Below, one piece after another: positions 8,494 to 14,154 of a stretch of 64,000 bases of DNA; position 1 is the stretch's first letter; each line of letters opens with the position of its first letter. Source of the stretch: Marinomonas primoryensis (GTDB lineage Bacteria > Pseudomonadota > Gammaproteobacteria > Pseudomonadales > Marinomonadaceae); NCBI RefSeq assembly GCF_013372285.1, contig NZ_CP054301.1, forward strand, positions 3,882,501 through 3,946,500, read 5' to 3'. The notes below the pieces were generated by a model. It had not been told where the DNA came from. It ran no database searches and saw nothing but the letters and a program-made list of their open reading frames with translations. The translations under genes and the position numbers were made by a program.

Positions 8494-9489
8494 TTAATGA
8501 AGATATTGAGGTCCCAGTAGAATAGCGAGCGATAATGTCAGCGAAAACGTACCGTCGTAGTCGTCTTCTTCTTCATGGGTAAACTGAGGCGTCACCTGAC
8601 CAATAAGCCAATCTTTGTAGAGAAGACGCTCATATTGAATGTTATATAAAAAACTGTCTGGCTCAATAGACTGCTCGCCTGATTGAAGAAAGCTCAATTG
8701 ATACGCCATCCGATTTTTTTCATTCAATGAATGCTGAATAATAAAATTTTCACGGACATAAAATAGCCCTTCTTTATCAAGCCAAGTTACGCCAAAGTCT
8801 GTACTGAAATTCAAAGTAGGGCTCGTAGCGTAACCTAAACCTAGGCCATAACGTGCGCCAATGCCTTTAGAATAATAAGCAAATGCTTCTTGATTTTGCC
8901 ACCAATTCCACGATCCAGTAACGTCACTCTGTTTAAGGCGTAATCGTAAAAATGGATCAAGAGGAAAGTCTACTTTTATACCAGCATCAAGATCTAACCC
9001 TATGTCTTCTTGTATATAACGCACAGCAGCCGAGATATTCGATTTCAAGGCAGAATTTACAATGCCATTTTGTTGAGACGATTCGCCTCGCAAACTTTCA
9101 GGTGCCAAAGAGTCAGGTTCAGACTCGATGATTAAGCGTAATCTATCTTGAGTATTTGGCAATTTAAGCCTAGTACGAAAATCAAAAAAGCCAGAACGGT
9201 CACTTCCACTTAATACCGTGCCAAATCGCACGTCTAAATAACTATCTGAAGGTTGGCTGCGTTCAGTTCCGGATAAAAAGGAATCTATATTTGTCGACCA
9301 ACTGCCAATTGTTTTTGAAACCGTCTCATGTGAACTCAACCACCAAGAAGGTTCAGTATTTTTTCCTACCTGCTCACTGTTTTCAAATTGAGCAACCGTA
9401 TTACTAACCTCCTCTTCAGCAGAAGAAACGGGCAAGGAGCAAAAAGCAGCCAAACAAAGCATTGCAAAACGCCCCTTGCTTACGAACAT
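8494..9489 (-). CDS. Conserved outer-membrane-like protein of unknown function
   Basis: 331 aa, not recognised as a named family. A Sec signal peptide covers about residues 1-24, with likely cleavage after SSA. The mature part lacks hydrophobic helices and has many alternating aromatic and polar residues (for example GIGARYGLGLGYAT and FSLTLSLAILLGP at the end), as expected for a beta-barrel. The gene follows the mtnN stop by 3 bases and is the last member of the LuxP-like/LuxQ-like/mtnN operon. A surface or porin role is inferred only from fold appearance. Confidence 0.7.
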   Translation of the reverse strand: MFVSKGRFAMLCLAAFCSLPVSSAEEEVSNTVAQFENSEQVGKNTEPSWWLSSHETVSKTIGSWSTNIDSFLSGTERSQPSDSYLDVRFGTVLSGSDRSGFFDFRTRLKLPNTQDRLRLIIESEPDSLAPESLRGESSQQNGIVNSALKSNISAAVRYIQEDIGLDLDAGIKVDFPLDPFLRLRLKQSDVTGSWNWWQNQEAFAYYSKGIGARYGLGLGYATSPTLNFSTDFGVTWLDKEGLFYVRENFIIQHSLNEKNRMAYQLSFLQSGEQSIEPDSFLYNIQYERLLYKDWLIGQVTPQFTHEEEDDYDGTFSLTLSLAILLGPQYLH

Positions 9490-9492
9490 AAC

Positions 9493-10188
9493 TTAGTAGC
9501 CTTTAAGCATTTGCTGAATCATCAGAGATGAATTTTCCGCCGCAACTTGAAGATACTCCTCAAAACTCTGAGAAGACTCCTTACCCGCGATATCAGACAA
9601 TGAACGCACCACAACAAAAGGCGTTCCAAACTTGAAACACACCTGCGCAACAGCAGCGGCTTCCATTTCGACCGCCACAAGTTCAGGAAAAATAGCTCTA
9701 ACCGCTTCCACTCGAACAGGATCATTCATAAAACTATCCCCTGTTCCAATCAAACCAACTTTGGCTTGTACTTGAGTCACGGTCTGTAAGGCTTTTTTCG
9801 CCTGATTCACTAAATCTGTGTTCGCTGCATACGTCGCAGGCATGTTTGGAACCTGCCCCATCACATAACCAAACGCAGTGACATCCACATCATGATGAAC
9901 CACTTGATCCGAAATCACGACATCTCCAACTTGTAAATCAACATCAAAGCCACCAGCAGAACCAATGTTTATCACATATTCTGGCTGGAACTGAGAAAGC
10001 AACAAAGTAGTCGACACAGCCGCATTTACCTTACCAATACCGGATTTAAGCAAAACCACTTCTTTGCCTTCAAAAGATCCAACAAAAAAATCACAACCTG
10101 CAATGGTCTGTTCACGAACATCTGTCATCCACGCTTTGATGACGGCCACTTCTTCGTCCATGGCGCCAATTAACCCGATTACGCTCAT
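9493..10188 (-). CDS. mtnN: 5'-methylthioadenosine/S-adenosylhomocysteine nucleosidase
   Basis: Cleaves adenine from MTA and SAH. It recycles SAM by-products and makes S-ribosylhomocysteine, the substrate for LuxS-dependent AI-2 synthesis where LuxS exists. The 231-aa protein shows the family landmarks IGLIGAMDEEV with the first catalytic Glu, NIGSAGGFD, VAVEMEAAAVAQVC with the second catalytic Glu, and the catalytic Asp in SLSDIAG. The ATG overlaps the stop of the LuxQ-like gene by 4 bases (ATGA), so production is coupled to the sensor. No luxS gene lies in the window. Confidence 0.96.
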   Translation of the reverse strand: MSVIGLIGAMDEEVAVIKAWMTDVREQTIAGCDFFVGSFEGKEVVLLKSGIGKVNAAVSTTLLLSQFQPEYVINIGSAGGFDVDLQVGDVVISDQVVHHDVDVTAFGYVMGQVPNMPATYAANTDLVNQAKKALQTVTQVQAKVGLIGTGDSFMNDPVRVEAVRAIFPELVAVEMEAAAVAQVCFKFGTPFVVVRSLSDIAGKESSQSFEEYLQVAAENSSLMIQQMLKGY

Positions 10189-12779
10189 TCATTGCTCCTA
10201 ATATTTGCATTATTATGCATAACGTCTTGTGTAAATAACCGTATTTGATCGCCAGAATAAGGCAAGGCCATCTCGAAAAGGGCCACATTATCCGGCATTT
10301 CCGGCCACCTTTGTACCGAAAAAAACCGTACCTTTGGAAAAGCGGCCTGAATCGACAATAAAAGGGTCTCTGGCTGAGGCACCAACAACACAACAACCGC
10401 ATCAGGGTGGTACGACAAAACGACATAATAGTTAGATAAGTCCACTAGCCATTGCGTCGTAATGCCATAGTTTTCTAACTCTGTATACCAGATTGCTTTG
10501 GTGACACGACTTCCACCCACCATTACCCAAGACTCATATTGCCCATTAGAGTATGTAGGAACAACCCCCTCCAATGCGCATGCTTTTACCAATATTTGAT
10601 GCAGGCTATAATCAAAAGAACATCCCATTAGGGTAAAAACATGCGGATCGGCTTTGACCGGCAATGTGCTATTTAACCAAACGATTGGAAGCTGATCTCG
10701 ATTGTATTTTAGTTTCAGCGCCTGGGTCATATCCGACTGCGCATCCACATCGCTATCACACCCAATCAAGACAGCATCGAATTTCTTGACGGCACTAGAC
10801 TGAGTGAAAAAACTGTCCGTTGAAATATATTCTTCAACCTGTAAACCTAACCTCTCTAGAGCTTCCTTTACCGCTTCTGCATTTGAGTAGTCATTCGACA
10901 CCCAGGCCACCACATGATTTGGTGCTAACGGCTTGAACTCGTCTTTAGACTCAGACTCTTCAATTATTAAATTAAGTTGTAATGCATTATTTTGTAAGGT
11001 CTTTTGCTGGCCACCAAGGTGAGCTAGTAACATATTAACCATCCAGCAAAAAAGAGGCCTGAAAGCCATATCGTTCATTGCTATCATTTCAAGTCCAGAG
11101 TCATCAAAACGAACCGTTAGACGACGCTCAGCCATATCGTTCGACATGACCATCATAAATAAAACACGCACCAGACCTCTAAAACTCGCATCCACTGCAA
11201 CAACCCTTGCTCCAGTCATTACTGAGCAATCCAATTGTACTCGATTTGCTTCTACGCCCATCGCTACCATAACTCGAGCACTTTCCTGACAAAAAACATC
11301 TCCTATCGGGAGATAAGACACATCGCTTTCTACCGTGCTAATTTCGTCTAATACTGATACCAACAACGCAATCCAGCCCTGTAAATGCGTTGTGTTTGTA
11401 TGGCTAGGTAGCATGGAAAGGTACGTCAGCTCATTTAATATGGCATCCGTGTCCACCTTCTTTTGCACAACGGATGATAGTGGCTGTAACTGCTCAAGTT
11501 GCCACGTTAGACTGGTTTCTTGGGTAACATTTTGACCTACTAATAATAAGCCTCGATAAGTACTCTCATTTTGAAATGAATAGGCCTGCCATTGATATAT
11601 CCGCCCTAGATTATTAATGGTTAAGTCAAAATGAACACCAAGACCACCTTTTAACGCCTCTTGAATAGATTGATGACAAGAAATAGGCATAAAATCAAAA
11701 AGGGTTCGTGCTCTATCTGAGTCAGGAAAAATACGCTTAGCTTCTGTATTGATAAGCTCAACTTCCGCTACCTCGTTACAGAAAATGATGGCACTGTGTA
11801 TCGATTCTGCAAGAAGCGTAAATCTACGTTCTTTGGCTTTAATAAAGGCCTTATATTGATTACTTTGCAGCTTAAAAGGTTGCAACTCGCTAAACGTCAA
11901 CAAGTCCTCTTCAGGGCGATACGCTATGGCTTCAAGAGGATGGAAAAGTAACGTTTTCACTAAACGTGTCAAAAAGAAATAGAAGCACAATAAAACAAAA
12001 CCAACCGCAACAATTAAGGGCAGTGCATTTGTTAACAGAGTAGAAGAAAATGCGTGTTTTTGAATAATATCGAGTTGTAGTTCTGACTGGACAGGCGAAA
12101 CTAAAGGTAAACGCGAGCGTAATATCGAGCCAGATAAGTCCACACTGGCCTTATGCTCTTCTAACAAAACACGATCATTAACCTTGTCATAAATTTGTAC
12201 GGCACTGACTTGAGCGCTTTCAAGTAGTTCATGTGCCAACGTTAAGTTGTCATTTAATGAAATAAAACCATACAAAAAACCAATATTCTCTTGCTCAGAC
12301 GACAGTAATTTTTTTTTGTACATAAGCAAAATGGTACCGTCTTTTGTCATAATAGACGTCCACCTGTTGATAAGCCCTTCTCGCAATAGAGGTTGAAAAT
12401 TTACTTTTGTAAATAAGCGCGCCCTCGGGTCCATTGAGTGCAGGCCATTTTTCCATTCGATATAAAAGAAATCTAAACCACCGAATAGCAATACCTCATG
12501 ATGACTAAATAGCAAATCTAGTTCATGACCAGAGGTATAATCGCGTAAAGAAAGATCCTGCCCAATAAACTTCATTTCATCTTCAGCGCGAGCCAAATAG
12601 CCATTAAAAGCCTGTTCAACCACTCGATGCTTTAAAACCAAACCTTTTTCTGCAGCCGATTGATTCAAGGCTTCAATAAAATACAGAATCATCAAAGCAA
12701 TGACTAAAAAGGCCACTCCGATCGATGCTAACACCCTTTTCCGTAGACGGCGCCGTAAACTAATACTTACTCTTGCCAT
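10185..12779 (-). CDS. LuxQ-like hybrid sensor with degenerate kinase and receiver domains
   Basis: Inner-membrane sensor of 864 aa. Membrane segments lie at about residues 17-36 and 250-272 and enclose a periplasmic domain of about 210 residues. A PAS-like region (315-420), a helical region where a histidine kinase dimerisation domain would be (422-480), an ATPase-like region (485-608) and two receiver-like regions (622-735 and 748-855) follow. No H-box His, no N-box and no glycine-rich ATP lid are visible. The expected phospho-acceptor Asp is Gly 673 in DAVLIGCDSD and Leu 798 in DAVVVLLVPQ. It overlaps the LuxP-like gene by 13 bases and mtnN by 4, so a partner binding protein is very likely. 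It looks like an intact pseudokinase rather than a broken gene. The LuxQ relation is inferred from context and layout. Confidence 0.72.
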   Translation of the reverse strand: MARVSISLRRRLRKRVLASIGVAFLVIALMILYFIEALNQSAAEKGLVLKHRVVEQAFNGYLARAEDEMKFIGQDLSLRDYTSGHELDLLFSHHEVLLFGGLDFFYIEWKNGLHSMDPRARLFTKVNFQPLLREGLINRWTSIMTKDGTILLMYKKKLLSSEQENIGFLYGFISLNDNLTLAHELLESAQVSAVQIYDKVNDRVLLEEHKASVDLSGSILRSRLPLVSPVQSELQLDIIQKHAFSSTLLTNALPLIVAVGFVLLCFYFFLTRLVKTLLFHPLEAIAYRPEEDLLTFSELQPFKLQSNQYKAFIKAKERRFTLLAESIHSAIIFCNEVAEVELINTEAKRIFPDSDRARTLFDFMPISCHQSIQEALKGGLGVHFDLTINNLGRIYQWQAYSFQNESTYRGLLLVGQNVTQETSLTWQLEQLQPLSSVVQKKVDTDAILNELTYLSMLPSHTNTTHLQGWIALLVSVLDEISTVESDVSYLPIGDVFCQESARVMVAMGVEANRVQLDCSVMTGARVVAVDASFRGLVRVLFMMVMSNDMAERRLTVRFDDSGLEMIAMNDMAFRPLFCWMVNMLLAHLGGQQKTLQNNALQLNLIIEESESKDEFKPLAPNHVVAWVSNDYSNAEAVKEALERLGLQVEEYISTDSFFTQSSAVKKFDAVLIGCDSDVDAQSDMTQALKLKYNRDQLPIVWLNSTLPVKADPHVFTLMGCSFDYSLHQILVKACALEGVVPTYSNGQYESWVMVGGSRVTKAIWYTELENYGITTQWLVDLSNYYVVLSYHPDAVVVLLVPQPETLLLSIQAAFPKVRFFSVQRWPEMPDNVALFEMALPYSGDQIRLFTQDVMHNNANIRSNE

Positions 12780-13876
12780 AGTTCCACCGAGTAATGGTAG
12801 GCCTGCTGCACCATCAAACGAATACTTTCAGCGTCTAGCTCAGCAGGCATTAACGTAGAATGTGCGACATAAAGATTGGGCATATTCTTTCCTTCAAGGT
12901 CCATTTTAATTGCTTCTGCTAACGCGATAGATAGATCATCCTTCATAAAGAGAACGCTCACTTTCACCCGACGGCTTACCAGATCAGATATCCCATGCAA
13001 AGGTAGTCCCCACGAATTTGTTTGAATGTTTGGAGCGAGACTCTTTTCTTTTAGTGCGGCCACGACACCATCAGAAATATTCTGAGAGCAACTAAAAATA
13101 AAGTCTGATGGATCCTTTTTCAATAATGATTGGGCCGCCTCAAAAGCACTTTTTTTATTGTCTGAAACCACTCTAATGTGACTGATACGACGATTGTATT
13201 TCATCATTTCATTTAGAAATACATCGCAGCGTACATAGCCAAGATAGCCTGATGGTAAAACCAATGCTGAGATACTTGCGTCTGGAGGCAGCTGGCGATC
13301 GAGATAACTGGCAAGCATGATGGTTGCCTTTTTTTGATCAAAACCAATGTACATTAGAGGAGGGTGATTCATCCAATGAGCCAACGGCGAGGCAAAATCA
13401 TAAAGAATCACCTTCGGAGCTTTACTGGTGCGTAAAAAGCGCTCTAAGAAGCGGCGCTGAACAAAGCCCAGCTCAGTCATCACAATATAATCAGGCTGAG
13501 CTTCTGCTATTTTGAAATAAGGCGTTATGTCGCTGCTATTCTGAGAGCTGCCAATGTAAGTATCAAGTCGATAATCGATTCCTAACTCTCGCATGCGTTT
13601 TTTAAATGACATTAACAACGATCTATTGTCTATAGCATTTATATCCCCAAATAATAGCAACGCAATACGCACCGCTCTTTTTTGAGGGACTCGAATTGGA
13701 CTAGGAGGCGAGTTTACTACGGTTGTAAACTGTTCTGCCAAAGGCCCTTGCCTTGGACTAAGTTGATAAAAATCATAACTGTCCATCAGATCAAGCGACA
13801 TGCTCGCTGCTTGTGCAGTGAAAGCGGAGCATCCTAGAAGAACAACCCACACGATAAAATAACGAAATCTGCGCAT
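12767..13876 (-). CDS. LuxP-like periplasmic binding protein
   Basis: Secreted type I periplasmic binding protein of 369 aa with a Sec signal (about residues 1-23, AQA end). The C-terminal part resembles Vibrio LuxP: DDLSIALAEAIKMDLEGKNM, then a predicted tail helix, and an NSWG segment at the place of LuxP's NGWG. Compared from memory with V. harveyi LuxP, several AI-2 contacts appear changed: the QVSDYW region reads INAIDN and the Arg of VMRMNDD is Phe in VLFMKDD. The equivalent of one contact Arg (GYVRCDVF) is kept. It is the first gene of the operon and overlaps the sensor by 13 bases. Ligand is unknown; AI-2 or another sugar-like molecule. Confidence 0.75.
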   Translation of the reverse strand: MRRFRYFIVWVVLLGCSAFTAQAASMSLDLMDSYDFYQLSPRQGPLAEQFTTVVNSPPSPIRVPQKRAVRIALLLFGDINAIDNRSLLMSFKKRMRELGIDYRLDTYIGSSQNSSDITPYFKIAEAQPDYIVMTELGFVQRRFLERFLRTSKAPKVILYDFASPLAHWMNHPPLMYIGFDQKKATIMLASYLDRQLPPDASISALVLPSGYLGYVRCDVFLNEMMKYNRRISHIRVVSDNKKSAFEAAQSLLKKDPSDFIFSCSQNISDGVVAALKEKSLAPNIQTNSWGLPLHGISDLVSRRVKVSVLFMKDDLSIALAEAIKMDLEGKNMPNLYVAHSTLMPAELDAESIRLMVQQAYHYSVELWQE

Positions 13877-14069: not shown

Positions 14070-14154
14070 TGGTGCGGAAGGAGAGACTCGAACTCTCACG
14101 CCGTGAAGCACTGGAACCTAAATCCAGCGTGTCTACCAATTCCACCACTCCCGC
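14070..14154 (-). tRNA. tRNA-Leu (anticodon UAG)
   Basis: 85-nt class II tRNA read on the minus strand. Acceptor stem GCGGGAG pairs with CTTCCGC, allowing one G-T pair. The D arm includes AATTGGTAGACAC and the anticodon stem CTGGA/TCCAG encloses loop TTTAGGT with anticodon TAG at 14118-14120. A long variable arm is present, the T loop is GTTCGAGTC, and CCA is encoded at the 3' end. This fits the bacterial Leu(UAG) tRNA reading CUN codons. Confidence 0.97.

Follow-up and report, generated by a model that had tools for sequence, protein, structure and literature searches.

The window analysed here is a stretch of 64,000 nucleotides from the 4.07 Mb single-contig genome of Marinomonas primoryensis (NZ_CP054301.1, positions 3,882,501 to 3,946,500), and it carries a four-gene locus whose first two products resemble LuxP and LuxQ of the Vibrio autoinducer-2 (AI-2) system. 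Comparison across the genus indicated that this LuxPQ derivative is very probably neither an AI-2 receptor nor a kinase, and both proteins are still under purifying selection. Judged from the sequences, it is reasonably probable that the LuxP-LuxQ pair was remodelled in the Marinomonas ancestor into a complex acting by protein contact. The genes are as follows.

12767..13876, minus strand: luxP-like periplasmic binding protein gene (gene 1), open reading frame (ORF) of 369 amino acids (aa)
10185..12779, minus strand: luxQ-like pseudo-hybrid-kinase gene (gene 2), ORF of 864 aa
9493..10188, minus strand: mtnN (pfs), methylthioadenosine/S-adenosylhomocysteine (MTA/SAH) nucleosidase gene (gene 3), ORF of 231 aa, TIGR01704
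8494..9489, minus strand: outer-membrane beta-barrel-like protein gene (gene 4), ORF of 331 aa, weak PF13505 match

An earlier note on this DNA had described the four minus-strand genes at 8494-13876 as tightly packed, and this was borne out: luxP and luxQ overlap by 13 bases and luxQ and mtnN by 4, and a gap of 3 separates mtnN from the barrel gene.

The window's LuxP-like protein matched V. harveyi LuxP in the PDB (E 3e-39, residues 35-363), a similarity that spans the mature protein. At ten positions which we take to be the AI-2 contacts of LuxP structure 1JX6, LuxPs of 47 Marinomonas genomes were compared with three Vibrio proteins and with 15 encoded in 14 genomes that represent nine further genera of the order. 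V. campbellii LuxP carries the expected letter at all ten, and the accessible part of one study gives Arg215 and Arg310 as AI-2 contacts (PMC3794749). All 15 LuxPs from other genera had Q77, S79, W82, N159, T266, D267, W289 and R310; R215 was found in 14 and S265 in 11. Among the Marinomonas proteins, Q77, W82, T266 and D267 occurred in 0/47 (vs 18/18 of the others) and R310 in 1/47 (vs 18/18), while N159 was retained in 12, S79 in 22, S265 in 23, R215 in 38 and W289 in all 47. The register of positions 77-82 is less sure than that of the rest, since the closest PDB comparison has an alignment gap nearby. Nine contact columns had a mean entropy of 0.16 bits in AI-2-type LuxPs against 1.60 bits elsewhere, a value as low being reached by none of 10,000 random column sets; in Marinomonas the same columns averaged 1.80 bits against 1.87, that is, on average no extra constraint.

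Only one of 357 columns was fixed differently in the two groups (at least 44/47 vs at least 16/18): residue 217, which is Cys in 47/47 Marinomonas LuxPs and Gly in 18/18 others. Cys217 and Cys263 are the only cysteines after residue 35 in all 47 proteins, and the pair is kept even in Marinomonas LuxPs only 23% identical to that of the window. Since residue 263 is also Cys in 14/18 non-Marinomonas LuxPs, Cys217 is the new cysteine. The two flank Arg215 and Ser265, which used to be AI-2 contacts, and no cysteine is present in the sensor's periplasmic part. The invariance and isolation of the pair suggest a disulfide beside the former AI-2 contacts, which may be structural, locking or redox-sensing. 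The Marinomonas LuxPs formed one clade (support 100/100), so the simplest view is that the changes arose in their common ancestor.

The LuxQ-like sensor is arranged in the order transmembrane segment, periplasmic LuxQ-like domain, transmembrane segment, PAS, DHp-like, CA-like and two receiver-like domains. Its parts lie as follows.

11985..12707, minus strand: periplasmic LuxQ-like region and second membrane segment, residues ~25-265 (approximate boundaries)
11514..11828, minus strand: PAS-like region, residues ~318-422, from PAS families in a few orthologues and alignment to intact LuxQ
10950..11510, minus strand: DHp-like and CA-like core, residues 424-610, with Asn449 at the His position and the lid and G2 deleted
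10563..10922, minus strand: pseudo-receiver 1, residues ~620-739, with Gly673 and Asn629
10188..10538, minus strand: receiver-like domain 2, residues ~748-864, with Gly755-Gly756

The kinase motifs are missing from all the sensors aligned. The H-box, N-box, G1 and G2 motifs were found in 0/47 sensors and in 4/4 intact LuxQs, as the earlier note had proposed in describing the sensor as devoid of H-box, N-box and ATP lid; it had named an intact H-box in a profile search as one of the findings that would overturn its view, and no H-box motif appeared in any of the 47. At position 449, placed by eye as that of the phosphorylated His, Asn (17 sensors, including that of the window), Ser (10), Asp (6), Gln (6) and other residues were present and His in none, and the adjacent Glu450 was invariant. 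Gaps of 10 and 16 alignment columns coincide with the LuxQ stretch bounded by G1 and G2, in which the lid lies. Residue 547 and Gly590 are 42-44 residues apart in 47/47 sensors, against 79 for N606 and G685 in L113, an intact LuxQ of another genus of the order; this pairing was made by eye and is shifted by some residues in the profile alignment, and the loss across the G1-lid-G2 stretch would be roughly 26-36 residues.

The receivers are altered as well. In receiver 1 the acceptor is Gly in 43 and Ala in 4 of the 47 sensors, never Asp, and the second acidic residue is replaced by Asn629 in 45/47 (the pair is S628/N629 in the window). The acidic pair of receiver 2 has become Gly755-Gly756 in 47/47. 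The earlier note had read the two acceptors as Gly and Leu. Its Gly673 in receiver 1 holds; for receiver 2 the invariant Leu799 gives way to position 800, which lies at the end of a hydrophobic strand and more likely represents the right acceptor register. Here 29 sensors carry Glu, 13 Asp, 2 Ser and 2 Thr; that of the window carries Val, and its genome thus has an acid at neither candidate (V800, L799). With the register at 800, most of the genus would have a phosphomimetic-like Glu, and 13 mostly divergent species an Asp without the metal-binding pair. The view of the sensor as lacking the residues of a phosphorelay (H-box, N-box, G1, G2, lid and receiver acidic pairs) was upheld. A second degenerate hybrid kinase is encoded in the same genome outside the window (L138:21-1767), with Gln for the H-box His and Gly for the receiver acceptor by eye; a small Hpt ORF follows it. 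This kinase is a possible parallel or partner.

Kinase ancestry was traced by profile and fold. Searched alone, the window sensor gave only matches below the cut-off in Pfam (LuxQ-periplasm, E 7.9e-4; DUF7839, E 0.093) and, far below it, in NCBIfam (kinase PnpS, residues 303-423, E 4.5e-4). When Pfam was run on the 47 sensors at E 0.01, LuxQ-periplasm was matched in 27/47, PAS-type families in at most 4 each and two stray families in single members, and HisKA, HATPase_c and Response_reg in 0/47. A profile of the 47 orthologues matched the LuxQ periplasmic structure 3c30 (E 7.1e-5) and the receivers 2b4a (E 8.8e-5) and 7c1j (E 2.2e-4) in the PDB. It also gave an end-to-end alignment (pairwise E 2.3e-16 over 814 columns, 14% identity) with four intact LuxQs, of which three are from Vibrio and the fourth, that of L113, has two receivers. 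A structure model of residues 424-864 was built from 15 sequences (the window and 14 of 16 loci). ShkA, a hybrid kinase, headed the Foldseek ranking (E 2.3e-8, TM-score by query 0.33, root-mean-square deviation 15.5), with RetS in second place (E 1.5e-4, TM-score by query 0.25). Re-examination of Foldseek's own list with VIA-align gave the receiver 2qxy at Z 13.5 over 113 residues (620-736), tied with an uncharacterised Rossmann-fold protein at 13.3, the DHp-CA domain of the SrrAB kinase at Z 12.2 (161 residues, 439-610), and DivL at Z 10.2. The low-confidence model of receiver-like domain 2 (748-864) matched several Rossmann-like folds, and its assignment is less certain. As modelled, receiver 1 has the receiver fold and lacks active-site residues (Gly673 at the acceptor), which makes it a pseudo-receiver, and the sensor, with its apparent descent from a kinase and its missing catalytic residues, is by ancestry a pseudo-histidine kinase.

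The sensor gene had been read in the earlier note as selected and not decaying, and the estimates agreed with this. dN/dS was calculated by the Nei-Gojobori method for the window and 17 of 46 relatives, counting only pairs with dS <1.5. Against the nearest relative, whose LuxQ protein is 96% identical, it was 0.105 for luxQ, 0.100 for luxP, 0.028 for mtnN and 0.206 for the barrel gene. The medians were 0.079 (10 pairs), 0.085 (14), 0.037 (38) and 0.111 (14), respectively. Per-domain medians of luxQ (domain dN over whole-gene dS) ranged from 0.050 (PAS) to 0.089 (receiver 2). Because dN/dS is low in each domain, the disabled kinase and receivers appear to be constrained like the other parts of luxQ. 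The luxQ frame was intact in 46/46 other loci that lie on one contig.

With the window protein as query against 143 genomes, the luxQ-like gene was found in 48/48 Marinomonas genomes and, by this single-protein query, in 0/95 outside the genus, to which no profile was applied; the same query had no match in a plasmid collection. The 47 full-length proteins include that of the window. The 48th genome, that of M. pontica (G011; L050, L051), was excluded from protein alignments: its luxQ is split across two poor contig ends, which share a 793-bp overlap (99.4%, four gap openings), and the split looks like an assembly artefact. At L036, a M. rhodophyticola record, the luxQ match begins at residue 14 and the nearest in-frame start lies further in, possibly owing to a frameshift or sequencing error close to the start. 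A LuxP profile found only the window genome among 274 of a class sample (E 1e-12); at E 1e-8 it matched 33 of the 390 genomes sampled from the order (18 Marinomonas and 15 others). PF09308 at E 0.001 was present in 2/369 genomes of a class sample, including that of the window. G761 was rejected as a LuxP because its match was weak, like those of TorT-type proteins, which left the 14 genomes with 15 LuxPs. Second, weak matches in the Marinomonas genomes G016, G020, G037 and G042 are presumably TorT-like proteins. The tree took in three of these four copies (that of G042 was left out) and L129; L132 was left out.

All 46 other genomes whose locus lies on a single contig conserve the order luxP-luxQ-mtnN. 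The longer order fba, luxP, luxQ, mtnN, barrel gene, trmA, serA also held in these loci, with exceptions of two types: fba was not found at L069, where 244 bases separate the luxP start from the end of the contig, and the barrel gene was missing at 3/46 (L054, L094, L095) and adjoining in 43/46. Spacing between luxQ and mtnN ranged from -74 to +40 bases, with an overlap in 18/46; in one species (L090:6020-8677) the luxQ frame reaches 74 bases into mtnN, much further than elsewhere. The product of gene 3 is MtnN (TIGR01704, E 6.5e-92, 307.2 bits against a cut-off of 73.8), the sole match to that family in the whole genome. Judged by spacing, it is plausible that luxPQ and mtnN are joined in expression; mtnN is probably transcribed together with luxPQ and need not share their function. 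Promoter and terminator scans gave shuffled-level counts (12 vs 12.5 sites and 5 vs 5.0, respectively). Since fba, trmA and serA keep their places just as steadily and the genome has a single mtnN, the conserved order is weak evidence for a shared function of mtnN and luxPQ, and the position of mtnN may be plain synteny. In 15 LuxP loci read from other genera, mtnN was never beside luxP.

The product of gene 4 is weakly similar to outer-membrane proteins (PF13505, E 0.03, below the cut-off). The alignment of the barrel protein included 24 of 44 proteins. Its relatives occur in 33 of 112 genera sampled within the order, Marinomonas counted; 60 non-Marinomonas genomes were matched, and in the 12 loci of other genera that were read the relatives were not beside luxPQ or mtnN. 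Two relatives in other genera (L155, L159) lie near large genes of 994 and 961 aa. A tRNA-Leu gene is located upstream of luxP at 14070-14154.

As to the supply of AI-2, luxS is present in 47/48 Marinomonas genomes, and a Marinomonas isolate from brown algae released ~692 nM 4,5-dihydroxy-2,3-pentanedione (DPD) according to the available text of PMC6685064. Near-universal luxS and this release imply that Marinomonas can make AI-2. The only genome of the 48 without luxS (G045, locus L054) still has luxP, luxQ and mtnN; its LuxP is very divergent and alone of the 47 retains Arg at position 310. The genome of the window contains 10 Hpt matches, and two small Hpt ORFs adjoin kinase-like ORFs; an NtrC-type (LuxO-like) gene was not seen by eye in the flanks of these two small Hpt genes, luxO itself not being a target of the search. 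In the accessible parts of the literature, Rezzonico and Duffy reported in 2008 that Marinomonas sp. MED121 lacks luxS and has a LuxP homologue whose gene is followed by that of a LuxQ-like PAS protein and then by pfs, and AI-2 listening by Marinomonas via the luxP homologue was put forward as a possibility (PMC2561040); a 2024 survey counts M. mediterranea among AI-2 listeners (PMC11069264), and the introduction of a 2020 paper confines LuxP to Vibrio (PMC7584622).

Partners of AI-2-type LuxPs in the order were varied. Of the 15 transducers adjoining the LuxPs of other genera, 10 were searched with Pfam. These LuxPs precede a hybrid kinase (L113), HisKA_3 kinases (L114, L116, L124), HATPase_c kinases with PAS (L117, L118, L121) or a PAS-PAS protein only (L126), and G511 has two LuxP-transducer systems in one genome. 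In two other genera (L115:4967-8008, L119:8640-11684), a full-contact LuxP precedes a LuxQ-periplasm protein that terminates in PAS-GGDEF-EAL, an arrangement which suggests that AI-2 is fed directly into the turnover of cyclic di-GMP (c-di-GMP).

The remodelled complex may work as described below. The LuxP-like and LuxQ-like proteins would still form a complex that reaches from periplasm to cytoplasm. Its input would be a change sensed by the LuxP-like protein, either another ligand or the state of Cys217-Cys263, and the signal would cross the membrane and, by way of the PAS region, reach the pseudo-kinase and the pseudo-receivers, to whose surfaces a partner protein would bind. The simplest candidate for this partner is a further sensor kinase or the regulator of one, with an output modelled by analogy on the action of RetS on GacS or of DivL on CckA. 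It is unlikely, taken as a whole, that a disulfide replaced the ancestral AI-2 site and now provides a thiol-redox or locked input to a phosphate-free switch with tandem pseudo-receiver output.

Several points weigh against the remodelled-complex explanation. The partner, the ligand and the expression of the complex are parts of it that we infer. The luxQ dN/dS values come from 10/153 pairs, most pairs being saturated and not counted. The DHp-CA and receiver segments, aligned alone to the intact LuxQs, gave no significant match, so their assignment rests on the full-length alignment and the fold, together with the PDB profile match for receiver 1. The model of residues 424-864 has low confidence (mean pLDDT 64.5), and that of the full-length sensor (pLDDT 51) was not used for the fold search; the TM-scores of ShkA and RetS are low, and unrelated dehydrogenases also stand in the Foldseek list at E 6.8e-4. 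Phosphatase-like contacts may remain via Glu450, and 9/47 sensors have a His within five columns of 449, none inside an H-box. An acid (Glu or Asp) is found at position 800 in 42/47 sensors, not in the window, which counts against a genus-wide total loss of acceptor chemistry. Columns 82, 159 and 215 of the LuxPs stay fairly conserved in Marinomonas.

Other explanations were weighed on the same evidence. The earlier note had suggested signalling linked to AI-2 or SAH, in which LuxP would still sense AI-2 or a related product with mtnN as the metabolic partner. The wide occurrence of luxS (47/48), the DPD release by a Marinomonas isolate (PMC6685064) and the adjoining mtnN in 46 other single-contig loci fit this idea, but Q77, W82, T266 and D267 are absent from all 47 LuxPs and R310 from all but one, although all five are present in 15/15 LuxPs of other genera; moreover, the single luxS-free genome keeps luxP, luxQ and mtnN, and fba, trmA and serA are neighbours as steady as mtnN. 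The suggestion did not stand up: it is unlikely from these sequences that this receptor reads AI-2, and the explanation as a whole is very improbable. A new, clade-specific ligand in the old cleft would be a special case of the remodelled complex, with which its probability overlaps, and we regard it as a lesser possibility. Residues N82, D159, R215, S/T265, Q266, N267, W289 and F310 recur in most of the larger clade, but in the deep clades these positions are highly variable, and the old contact positions show no extra constraint on average.

A constitutive structural subunit, that is, a non-sensing scaffold for another membrane system, perhaps together with the barrel protein, would account for the joint loss of pocket and catalysis and for the barrel gene adjoining in 43/46 other loci. 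This is rather doubtful: three genomes keep the luxPQ pair without the barrel gene, and barrel relatives lie apart from luxPQ and mtnN in the 12 loci read in other genera. Hardly credible is a decaying remnant, retained only because downstream mtnN needs its promoter. It would be compatible with the single-copy mtnN and its overlaps or very short gaps to luxQ, and the M. rhodophyticola copy (L036) has no match for the first 13 residues and may start out of frame; against it, dN/dS is low in all luxQ domains, the frame is intact in 46 single-contig loci with the split M. pontica copy looking artefactual, and residues have become fixed to new letters, e.g. G755, G756 and C217. The remodelled complex is thus the explanation that we prefer.

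The locus organisation luxP-luxQ-pfs has been partly known since 2008 from the available text of PMC2561040; what is new is the double loss, together with the cysteine signature. Loss of both the AI-2 pocket and the kinase was not found in the open-licence literature, most subscription papers lying outside that scope. The pocket analysis of 47 genomes argues against the published status of Marinomonas as an AI-2 listener, and a preserved receptor apparently without pocket or enzyme activity probably does a different job. If the disulfide reading is true, a whole genus has converted a quorum-sensing receptor into a module that neither catalyses nor uses AI-2. The order offers a natural experiment in which the chemistry of one receptor architecture is intact in other genera and has been removed in one. 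How pseudo-receivers switch is called a mystery in the accessible part of a recent paper (PMC12632262), and a pseudo-kinase with tandem pseudo-receivers and a partner of known receptor type, in a culturable genus, makes this testable.

The Marinomonas pair shares with Vibrio LuxPQ (LuxP 1JX6 and LuxQ) the gene order, the LuxP similarity, the periplasmic domain and the order PAS-DHp-CA-receiver; it lacks most AI-2 contacts, the H-box, the N-box, the G boxes, the ATP lid and the receiver acidic pair, and its sensor has an extra, second receiver-like domain. The LuxPQ of the L113 type has the same domain order with two receivers. It differs in its HEIRTP motif, in HATPase_c and receivers above the Pfam cut-off, and in an AI-2-type pocket except for Cys215 and Ala265. 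RetS, DivL and other pseudo-histidine kinases are likewise kinase-derived sensors thought to work by protein contacts, and RetS and DivL were among the fold matches. RetS and DivL retain more of the kinase core, whereas here the lid, the His and both receivers are altered together. The luxP homologue operon of MED121 is most likely the same locus; its second protein was named a transcriptional regulator, and the accessible part of that paper does not remark that kinase motifs or the AI-2 pocket have been lost (PMC2561040). ShkA, the top Foldseek match, has the same order DHp-CA-REC1-REC2; according to the available text of PMC7010744, it is an active hybrid kinase whose pseudo-receiver binds c-di-GMP. 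With the pseudo-receivers described in the accessible part of PMC12632262, the Marinomonas sensor has in common receiver-like domains without conserved active-site residues; here, two such domains stand in tandem within a receptor-coupled pseudo-kinase.

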